Below are positions 7,126 to 9,943 of a stretch of DNA of 64,000 nt, piece by piece (position 1 is the first letter of the stretch; the number at the start of each line of letters is the position of its first letter). The notes under the pieces were generated by a model. The model was not told the DNA's origin. It saw only the letters and a list, made by a program, of their open reading frames with translations, and did not search any database. The stretch comes from Acidobacteriota bacterium (GTDB lineage: Bacteria; Acidobacteriota; Terriglobia; Terriglobales; Acidobacteriaceae), in contig JAJXWA010000001.1 in NCBI GenBank assembly GCA_021781795.1, forward strand, positions 496,001-560,000, written 5' to 3'. The position numbers and the translations under genes were made by a program.

Positions 7126-7210
7126 GCGGAAGTGGTGAAATTGGCAGACACACCATCTTGAGGGGGTGGCGCCGCAAGGCATGCGGGTTCAAGTCCCGCC
7201 TTCCGCACCA
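7126..7210 (+). tRNA. tRNA-Leu (anticodon GAG), CCA encoded
   Basis: Acceptor GCGGAAG/CTTCCGC, anticodon stem CCATC/GGTGG with loop TTGAGGG, class II variable arm GCC-GCAA-GGC, T arm GCGGGTTCAAGTCCCGC, 3' ACCA. Confidence 0.95.
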
Positions 7211-7264: not shown

Positions 7265-7570
7265 ATGCAGATTCTCTTCTACTTTGTGATGACGGTGCAC
7301 GTAATCGTCAGCCTCTTTCTCATCGGCGTAGTTCTCCTGCAGCAGGGGCGGTCAGCCGATCTCGCAGGCGCCTTTGGCGGGCAGGGTTCGCAGACCGCAT
7401 TTGGTCCCCGCGCCGCGGCGAACGTCATGACCCGCCTCACCACCTGGTCGGCAATCATCTTTATGGTCACCTCACTGACCCTGACGGTCCTGTATGTGCG
7501 CGGCGAGCGTAGCCATTCCGTCCTCGACGGCGCGGCGCCCATCTCGGGCCCAGCTAAGTCCGGCAAGTAG
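7265..7570 (+). CDS. secG: preprotein translocase subunit SecG
   Basis: Two-TM protein with VIVSLFLIGVVLLQQGRSADLAGAFGGQGSQTAFG, the SecG signature. Confidence 0.93.
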   Translation: MQILFYFVMTVHVIVSLFLIGVVLLQQGRSADLAGAFGGQGSQTAFGPRAAANVMTRLTTWSAIIFMVTSLTLTVLYVRGERSHSVLDGAAPISGPAKSGK

Positions 7571-7785: not shown

Positions 7786-9024
7786 ATGTCCTTCCGATCC
7801 GTCTTCATCGCAGTTACGGTTGCCTTTGGCCTGATTCTGGGAGCCTTCCTTGTCAATCGAGCCCGTCCTCGGGTTGAGACGCAACAACCTACATCCGACT
7901 TTGTGCTGGCCAGCGGCAAGTGCGCCGAGTGCCACGCGCGCCTCCAGTACTCCGTCGTGCACGAGTACGAGATGAGCGCCCACGCCAGGAAGGGTGTCAA
8001 TTGCCTCGACTGCCATCAGCCTGGCCCCGGCCAGAAGAAGATGGACCATCACGGCTTTGTCATCGCCACGCATCTCACGGCAGGCAACTGCCGCAGTTGC
8101 CACGAGGGCATCTATCAGGAATTCCTGCGCAGTCGCCACGCCGCGCCGAGTTGGGCCGCCATCTACGGCGAGAAAGGCCTCAGCCCTGAGCAGGTCGCCT
8201 TCAGCGAGCAATATCAGCCCGGGGGCACAAAGCGTCCTCCGCATCCCTTCGTCACTGCAGAAGGCTCATCGGCGATGGCCTCCGGGTGCGAGCAGTGTCA
8301 CTCCATCGGCAAGCCGAACGATGACGGCACCATCGGCACCTGCACTGAATGCCACGCCCGCCACACAAGCTCGGTCGCGCTTGCACGACTGCCCTCTACA
8401 TGCGCCCAGTGCCACATGGGCCCGGACCACTCTCAGATTGAGATCTACAACGAGTCCCGGCATGGCGTGATGTTTGCCGCGCAACGTGACCTGCTCAAGC
8501 TCGACGCCAATCCCAAAACCCTGACCACCCGAGATATGTTTGTGCCCACCTGCGCCACCTGCCACATGAGCGGCATCAACGGCCTCAAGGTGACGCACGA
8601 CCCCTCCGAGCGCCTCGGCTGGTATCTGGCGGATGCCATCAGCACACGGCGGCCCAACTCGCTGCAGGCCCAGACCAACATGAAGCAGGTCTGCGAGCAG
8701 TGCCATACCTCCGCGCAGATTGACCGCGTCTATGCGCAGGCCGATCAGGTCGTGGCCAGCACCAACGCCAAGGTGCAGGCCGCGAAGAACATCATGGATG
8801 GCTTGCATAAAGACGGTATCCTTACTGGTCCGCCCTTCAGCAACCCCATCGACTTTACCTACTTCGACCTCTGGCACTACGACGGACGCACCAGCAAACA
8901 TGGCGCCTTCATGGGTGGCGCGGACTTCGTGCAGTGGCACGGCAACTATGGGTTGCTGCAAAAAACAGTTGAGCTGCAGCACGACGCCGATGAACTGCGG
9001 AGGGCGCATGCAGCTCGCCGATAA
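7786..9024 (+). CDS. octaheme c-type cytochrome, hydroxylamine oxidoreductase-like family
   Basis: Eight CXXCH motifs: CAECH, CLDCH, CRSCH, CEQCH, CTECH, CAQCH, CATCH, CEQCH. C-terminal YFDLWHYDGRTSKHGAFMGGADFVQWHGNY resembles HAO family; N-terminal hydrophobic anchor. Confidence 0.82.
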   Translation: MSFRSVFIAVTVAFGLILGAFLVNRARPRVETQQPTSDFVLASGKCAECHARLQYSVVHEYEMSAHARKGVNCLDCHQPGPGQKKMDHHGFVIATHLTAGNCRSCHEGIYQEFLRSRHAAPSWAAIYGEKGLSPEQVAFSEQYQPGGTKRPPHPFVTAEGSSAMASGCEQCHSIGKPNDDGTIGTCTECHARHTSSVALARLPSTCAQCHMGPDHSQIEIYNESRHGVMFAAQRDLLKLDANPKTLTTRDMFVPTCATCHMSGINGLKVTHDPSERLGWYLADAISTRRPNSLQAQTNMKQVCEQCHTSAQIDRVYAQADQVVASTNAKVQAAKNIMDGLHKDGILTGPPFSNPIDFTYFDLWHYDGRTSKHGAFMGGADFVQWHGNYGLLQKTVELQHDADELRRAHAARR

Positions 9025-9943
9025 GGCCATCCGCGCGCTCGGCCGCATCCTTGCTCTGCCCGCGCTCCAGTGGGTCTTCGATATGGAGCTGCTGCTCGAG
9101 CTCTTCGTCGCGGCCAACCTCGCCGTGTTGGCGGGCGACATCGTGCTTGCCCATTCGGTCAACCACTTCCGCAACCCGGCCGAGTACATTCCGCTTTACT
9201 TCTCTGCCGCCGCGCCAGTTGTGCTCCTCGTCCTGGACCTGCTGCGCTGGCGCTGGGGCTTTCGCGCTGCCTGGCGCGATGTGGGCCTGCTGGTCGGCGG
9301 CCTCTCGGTGCTCGTCGGTCTTGGCGGCGTGCTCTATCACCTCCAAAGCAGCTTCTTTTTGCAGCACACCGTCGCCTCGCTCACGTATGCCGCGCCCTTT
9401 GCCGCGCCGCTCGCCTACACCGGCCTCGGCTTCCTGCTGCTCGCCAATCGCATGGTCTCGCCGCGCACCATCGAGTGGGCACGATGGGTCGTCCTCCTCG
9501 CCACCGGAGGCTTCTTCGGCAACTTCGTCCTTTGCCTCACAGACCACGCCACCAATGGCTTCTTTCTCAAGACCGAATGGATTCCCGTTCTCTCCAGCGC
9601 TCTGGCCACCGGCTTTCTCATTGTGCCGGTCTTGCTCCCGGTCACGCGCCGCTACCTTGACGTCTGCCTCGGCGTCCTCGGCGTGCAGGCCTTGGTCGGC
9701 ATCCTCGGCTTCTGCTACCACCTGCGCATGAACCTGATGGAACCCGGCGCGAGTCTCTTTGAGAAATCCGTCAACGGTGCCCCGCCCATGGCCCCGCTGC
9801 TCTTTCCCAACCTCGTCGGCCTCACCCTCATCGGGCTATGGGAGCTGGCCGCCCACCTGCCCGACGAGTCAGCCGTCGATCTGAGCCTCTTCGGCCGCGC
9901 TCTCGCGCTCGCGCCTGCTCCGCTTCCCGACCCGGAAATCTGA
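9008..9943 (+). CDS. polytopic integral membrane protein of unknown function
   Basis: Multiple hydrophobic segments. ATG at 9008 overlaps the cytochrome stop by 17 nt; the track's upstream start (8720) lies inside the cytochrome in another frame. Confidence 0.8.
   Translation: MQLADKAIRALGRILALPALQWVFDMELLLELFVAANLAVLAGDIVLAHSVNHFRNPAEYIPLYFSAAAPVVLLVLDLLRWRWGFRAAWRDVGLLVGGLSVLVGLGGVLYHLQSSFFLQHTVASLTYAAPFAAPLAYTGLGFLLLANRMVSPRTIEWARWVVLLATGGFFGNFVLCLTDHATNGFFLKTEWIPVLSSALATGFLIVPVLLPVTRRYLDVCLGVLGVQALVGILGFCYHLRMNLMEPGASLFEKSVNGAPPMAPLLFPNLVGLTLIGLWELAAHLPDESAVDLSLFGRALALAPAPLPDPEI

Follow-up and report, generated by a model that had tools for sequence, protein, structure and literature searches.

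A HAO-family octaheme cytochrome without the cross-linking tyrosine and its conserved, duplicated membrane partner form a two-gene module across diverse bacteria

The window analyzed here is a stretch of 64,000 nucleotides from a 3.4-Mb draft genome of a soil bacterium of the Acidobacteriota. It carries on its forward strand two overlapping genes, P0001 and P0002, the features of which are collected in Table 1. As stated in an earlier note made from the DNA letters, the P0001 reading frame contains exactly eight CXXCH motifs (at residues 46, 73, 102, 168, 186, 206, 256 and 303), and the C-terminal segment quoted there is present in the translated protein. The same number of motifs was found in all 45 aligned relatives, which come from many phyla. 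That note had overlooked what is unusual here, namely the N-terminal membrane anchor of P0001 and the partner gene P0002; a hydrophobic N-terminal stretch is present in each of the 45 relatives, the smallest maximum Kyte-Doolittle mean being 2.20. The nearest named relatives among the loci listed belong to Acidobacteriaceae and other Terriglobia MAGs. A tRNA-Leu (gag) gene (7126-7210) and then secG (7265-7570) lie just upstream of the pair.

Table 1. Features of the P0001-P0002 locus, in window coordinates
Feature	Position	Strand	Remarks
P0001, octaheme c-type cytochrome, HAO family, 412 aa	7786..9024	+	eight CXXCH, PF13447, AlphaFold2, Foldseek
N-terminal membrane anchor, residues 3-26	7792..7863	+	helix 3-26 in model
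Heme 1 motif CAECH	7921..7935	+	
Heme 2 motif CLDCH	8002..8016	+	
Heme 3 motif CRSCH	8089..8103	+	
Heme 4 motif CEQCH	8287..8301	+	aligned with NeHAO CTMCH, catalytic P460 heme position
Heme 5 motif CTECH	8341..8355	+	
Heme 6 motif CAQCH	8401..8415	+	
Asp214-His215	8425..8430	+	aligned with NeHAO catalytic Asp-His
Heme 7 motif CATCH	8551..8565	+	
Heme 8 motif CEQCH	8692..8706	+	
Phe381, cross-link position supposed in the earlier note	8926..8928	+	invariant; not the Tyr467 column
Gln383-Trp384, NeHAO Tyr467 column, no Tyr	8932..8937	+	both invariant in 45 relatives
P0002, 8-helix membrane partner, 311 aa	9008..9943	+	start overlaps P0001 end by 17 nt
P0002 first repeat unit, residues 49-135, H49 N52 E59 H111	9152..9412	+	hhalign
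P0002 second repeat unit, residues 180-264, H180 N183 E190 H238	9545..9799	+	hhalign

We observed that P0001 matches the Pfam family Multi-haem_cyto (PF13447) at 9e-26, with 91.1 bits against a cut-off of 21.9. Its best sequence match in the PDB was the octaheme cytochrome IhOCC of Ignicoccus hospitalis (4qo5; 1.6e-26), followed by the HAO of Nitrosomonas europaea (NeHAO; 1fgj, 4fas; 5e-19), Kuenenia HOX, Kustc0458 and hydrazine dehydrogenase, and a profile of the 45 relatives lifted the IhOCC match to 2e-47. The AlphaFold2 model of P0001, a monomer without hemes (pLDDT 85.6), retrieved in Foldseek IhOCC (1e-12), Kustc0457/0458 (6h5l; 3e-12) and NeHAO (4e-10). The eight hemes align with those of HAO, and like P0001, NeHAO has them in the same order, together with the Asp-His pair and PF13447. 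The octaheme nitrite reductase ONR and NrfA were rejected as families for P0001, as they gave weak partial matches only (phmmer, at least 0.0018; Foldseek, at least 0.027). Sequence, profile and predicted fold thus back the placement among HAO-family octaheme proteins that the earlier note had put forward, the PF13447, PDB sequence and fold matches all pointing to the HAO type and not to another multiheme family. Given the PF13447, IhOCC and NeHAO matches and the eight motifs kept in every aligned relative, this assignment is not due to chance.

The same note had suggested that the P460 tyrosine is missing, on the basis of the Phe in ADFVQWHG. This residue, Phe381, is real and invariant in the 45 aligned relatives, and the tyrosine is indeed absent, but the column that had been named is the wrong one. 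Tyr467 of NeHAO, which sits in GGWTY467TEGWG and forms the P460 cross-link, aligned with Trp384 by MAFFT L-INS-i, whereas anchoring on the following Gly shifts it opposite Gln383; the window clade has Gln-Trp there. In the L-INS-i alignment of the C-terminal part, Kustc0458 too has Trp in this column and IhOCC has Phe. When Kuenenia HOX was aligned with NeHAO alone, its catalytic Tyr and Tyr467 shared one column without gaps. A register placing Tyr467 on Phe381 (Gly-Gly anchor) was dropped, since the mutual alignment of NeHAO and HOX and the L-INS-i alignment give Trp384. No alignment-supported register places a Tyr at the cross-link column of P0001, and its relatives have no conserved cross-linking Tyr. 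Residue 381 itself is not diagnostic, because the 450-aa acidobacterial paralogs carry either Tyr or Phe in this place and the divergent cassettes L158 and L159 carry Tyr, and none of them has Tyr at the true column (the two cassettes keep Gln-Trp there). A 428-aa octaheme HAO-like protein of the same genus (L014:1417-2703, genome G001), which is nearer to Kustc0458 and HOX than to P0001, has Met at the cross-link column.

The absence of the cross-link Tyr has been tied to reductive enzymes and its presence to oxidative members, and ancestral reconstruction describes the HAO-like proteins of bacteria other than anammox bacteria as mostly Tyr-less and reductive (PMC12758564). As the Tyr-less form is common there, its occurrence in P0001 is ordinary when taken alone, and the missing Tyr by itself is no proof of reduction. 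Asp214-His215, at which position IhOCC has Asp-Val, is kept in 45/45 relatives, and the surroundings of heme 4 are invariant too. P0001 is therefore a HAO-type octaheme family member in which the hallmark of oxidative HAO is lacking.

In a maximum-likelihood tree, the cytochromes of the two-gene cassette formed one clade (support 100/98), which the divergent cassettes adjoin. This clade, IhOCC and the 450-aa acidobacterial paralogs stood apart from NeHAO, HOX and Kustc0458 (100/99), although the references are partial, read from printed alignments and on long branches, so that the exact join is unsure. As judged from sequence, the cassette cytochromes are nearer to IhOCC than to HAO. IhOCC, the best match in both sequence and fold, likewise has no Tyr at the cross-link column, but it differs in the Asp-Val pair and in its chain of 521 residues as against 412; to our knowledge, it has no P0002-type partner. 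Kustc0458 shares the HAO fold and the Trp at the cross-link column with P0001, and its PDB entry terms it a reducing HAO-like protein. However, on these partial, long-branched references it joins NeHAO and HOX and not the window clade, and its partner in the PDB entry is Kustc0457, the name of which shows no relation to P0002. Kustc0457/0458 is soluble.

The predicted product of P0002 has eight membrane helices (model pLDDT 92.1, pTM 0.90). Pfam and NCBIfam hold no family for it and no credible one for its 42 aligned relatives; a profile search of PDB sequences returned nothing, and the model gave no PDB fold match at E<=0.001. The N-terminal half aligned with the C-terminal half by hhalign with a probability of 98.6 (E 1e-15), and P0002 is thus an internal duplication. 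In each half, the motif H..N.F....E[WY]IP is followed by VG..G...H and then by a GAP..APL-type motif. Four histidines, H49, H111, H180 and H238, are invariant in the 42 P0002 sequences, and in the model they are at the ends of helices 1, 3, 5 and 7, on the same side of the membrane, which is predicted to be periplasmic from the loops by the positive-inside rule. These histidines form two matched pairs, which hints at b hemes or metal sites. CtaA is also a duplicated 8-helix protein, having two 4-helix units with His pairs, and a CtaA-like layout was considered for P0002; no fold match backs the likeness.

Distant relatives of the duplicated type, also without a Pfam family, were found at L152:5371-6318, L153:5424-6401, L155:5230-6240 and L156:5158-6165 (hhalign probability 96.6-97.7%). 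Those of L152 and L153 adjoin genes for gluconate-dehydrogenase subunit 3, GMC dehydrogenase, enolase-superfamily and thiamine enzymes, and these dehydrogenase neighbors fit a general role in which such membrane proteins exchange electrons with redox enzymes of the periplasm.

Scanning of species genomes yielded at least 80 cytochrome loci that are 51-96% identical to P0001. The labels of the listed loci cover about 11 phyla, among them Acidobacteriota, Planctomycetota, Poribacteria, Zixibacteria, Eisenbacteria and Neomarinimicrobiota, with further labels of Gemmatimonadetes, Bacteroidetes, KSB1, Myxococcales and Leptospiraceae, although MAG labels can be wrong. All 77 listed loci that extend more than 400 nt past the cytochrome have a P0002 homolog directly 3' of it on the same strand, the two genes overlapping or lying close; no other gene besides P0002 is conserved in the neighborhood. 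Within the order, 37 of 399 genomes carry the close-form cytochrome, some as fragments, and every strong P0002 match in the 399 genomes adjoins a cytochrome match or is its sole partner gene. We found no intact P0002 elsewhere in these genomes, those without the cytochrome holding at most short remnants. Among 366 genomes of the phylum, P0002 was adjacent in 10/10 strong cytochrome matches, and two divergent cassettes (G415, G441) hold both genes; about 58 of these genomes have other HAO-like paralogs, and no P0002 stands beside them. P0001 and P0002 as a module are thus well supported.

Several irregular copies were also recorded. Partner-gene fragments are present at G018:C12:5955-6200, G234:C66:6765-6911 and G285:C132:8741-9037, and as G018 and G234 are without the close-form cytochrome, the module seems to have decayed there. 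In one locus (L012/L015, G008:C22:560239-561472), an apparent frameshift interrupts the cytochrome gene between residues 119 and 121, whereas the reading frame of the partner is open. The genome G323 holds two cassettes (C87, C7), one of them beside a divergent qNorB gene. The divergent cassettes of G415 and G441 (L158:4887-7077 and L159:4464-6768) belong to another acidobacterial family and are followed by a 500-aa membrane protein without a Pfam match, which is weakly like an unnamed membrane protein of Acidobacteriaceae NO clusters (short match, 7e-6).

The surroundings of the cassette connect it with nitrogen oxides in some of its hosts. Several Acidobacteriaceae have the pair in divergent orientation to the quinol NO reductase gene qNorB and near genes for RIC/YtfE (Fe-S repair), a Crp/Fnr regulator, radical SAM and hemerythrin proteins; by hand count, the divergent qNorB is directly beside the cassette in 11 genomes. 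qNorB was present in 23 of the 37 cassette genomes vs 80 of the 362 others (Fisher 9.5e-7, with relatedness left uncontrolled). The link with nitrogen oxides is suggested by these neighbors and by the qNorB co-occurrence. On the other hand, the neighbors of the pair in the window are secG and a metallo-beta-lactamase-fold gene, and outside Acidobacteriaceae, no nitrogen family recurs among the 77 neighbors scanned; we count both against the nitrogen-oxide reading. The window genome has qNorB on another contig and cytochrome c assembly genes; no NirK match and no other PF13447 protein were found in it (the genome is 88% complete). A 450-aa membrane protein without a Pfam or NCBIfam match recurs beside the cassette, qNorB and RIC (L051:7887-9245, with homologs in L047, L048, L052, L064 and L067), and it has an HGH motif that we take to recall NnrS.

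On balance, we consider it probable that the pair makes up an octaheme enzyme that is bound to the membrane, linked to quinone and free of the cross-link, and that reduces NO, nitrite or hydroxylamine, its direction and substrate being read from indirect signs. The two overlapping genes would give one membrane complex, in which P0002 would trade electrons with quinones on the periplasmic side of the membrane. It would do so through two symmetry-related His/Glu/His sites, in which b hemes or another metal may be bound. Electrons would then pass to the eight hemes of P0001, and heme 4, an ordinary uncross-linked heme with the HAO-type Asp-His pair, would reduce NO, nitrite or hydroxylamine in a reaction that may be energy-conserving or protective. 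P0001 most likely behaves as a reductive HAO that receives electrons of quinol through P0002, and this would most likely serve to detoxify or respire NO or nitrite. We infer the reductive role from the missing Tyr, which Kustc0458, a reducing protein according to its PDB entry, replaces with Trp at the same column, and from the neighborhood in some relatives. The redox cofactors of P0002 and its quinone link we infer from the four invariant histidines at same-side helix ends and the dehydrogenase neighbors of the distant relatives. This proposed link to quinone is common to the NrfH/NapC quinol dehydrogenases; however, P0002 has no CXXCH and no Pfam, NCBIfam or PDB fold match to either the NrfH/NapC or the CtaA type. 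A NapC/NrfH-type partner was accordingly rejected, P0002 having neither multiheme CXXCH motifs nor a family match.

The cytochrome could instead be an electron conduit, or act on a substrate outside the nitrogen cycle, with the HAO fold kept for heme wiring only. Seven of the eight hemes in HAO serve electron transfer alone, and the lack of a neighborhood theme outside Acidobacteriaceae would fit this explanation; but against it stand the Asp-His pair and the residues around heme 4, which are invariant in 45 sequences, and the linkage of the cassette to qNorB and RIC in some genomes, and we regard it as unlikely. The direction could also be reversed, hydroxylamine or NO being oxidized and the electrons delivered to quinone through P0002. 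The distant P0002 relatives in dehydrogenase operons, where electrons would enter the membrane, and the retained Asp214-His215 pair agree with such a flow. However, no ammonia oxidation genes were seen nearby, and the cross-linking Tyr, the presence of which is tied to oxidative members (PMC12758564), is absent from P0001, so that we consider this direction unlikely as well.

That P0001 is an ordinary reductive HAO of the epsilon-HAO or HAOr type with an incidental neighbor seems highly improbable. The family and the loss of the Tyr would be the same, but the window clade is separate from Kustc0458, HOX and NeHAO, and the overlapping or near-abutting genes are adjacent in all 77 listed loci across about 11 labeled phyla, from which we conclude that the neighbor is not incidental. 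Phycisphaerae octaheme proteins found with a HAO model, for which nitrite reduction was proposed (PMC11266412), may form an overlapping set, as the window clade includes Phycisphaeraceae loci. Their identity with the clade is putative, and the passages found in that article mention no conserved membrane partner. The open-licence literature contained reports on octaheme HAO-like proteins, and none of those found describes the partner.

P0002 defines a conserved membrane protein family without a Pfam model, an NCBIfam model or a solved fold relative. Genes such as P0001 are labeled 'hao' in metagenome annotation, and their carriers may then be credited with nitrification or anammox-like ability; this call is probably wrong in direction, because the hallmark of the oxidative form is missing from the clade, which has a membrane partner of its own. 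If nitrogen oxides are indeed reduced by the module, then a membrane-bound reductase that escapes the standard markers Nir, Nor and Nrf would be present in many bacteria of soils and the sea whose phyla are poorly known. Somewhat more tentatively, the pair may be an undescribed respiratory or protective complex of about 11 phyla, in which a tethered, cross-link-free octaheme enzyme and a new family of duplicated, pseudo-symmetric redox protein with two His/Glu/His sites carry out a quinol-fed and possibly ammonium-making reduction of NO, nitrite or hydroxylamine; this would be a nitrogen-retention route misread by current HAO or Nrf markers. The pair is also present in at least one named strain, Paludisphaera soli JC670, and the module is therefore open to experiment.
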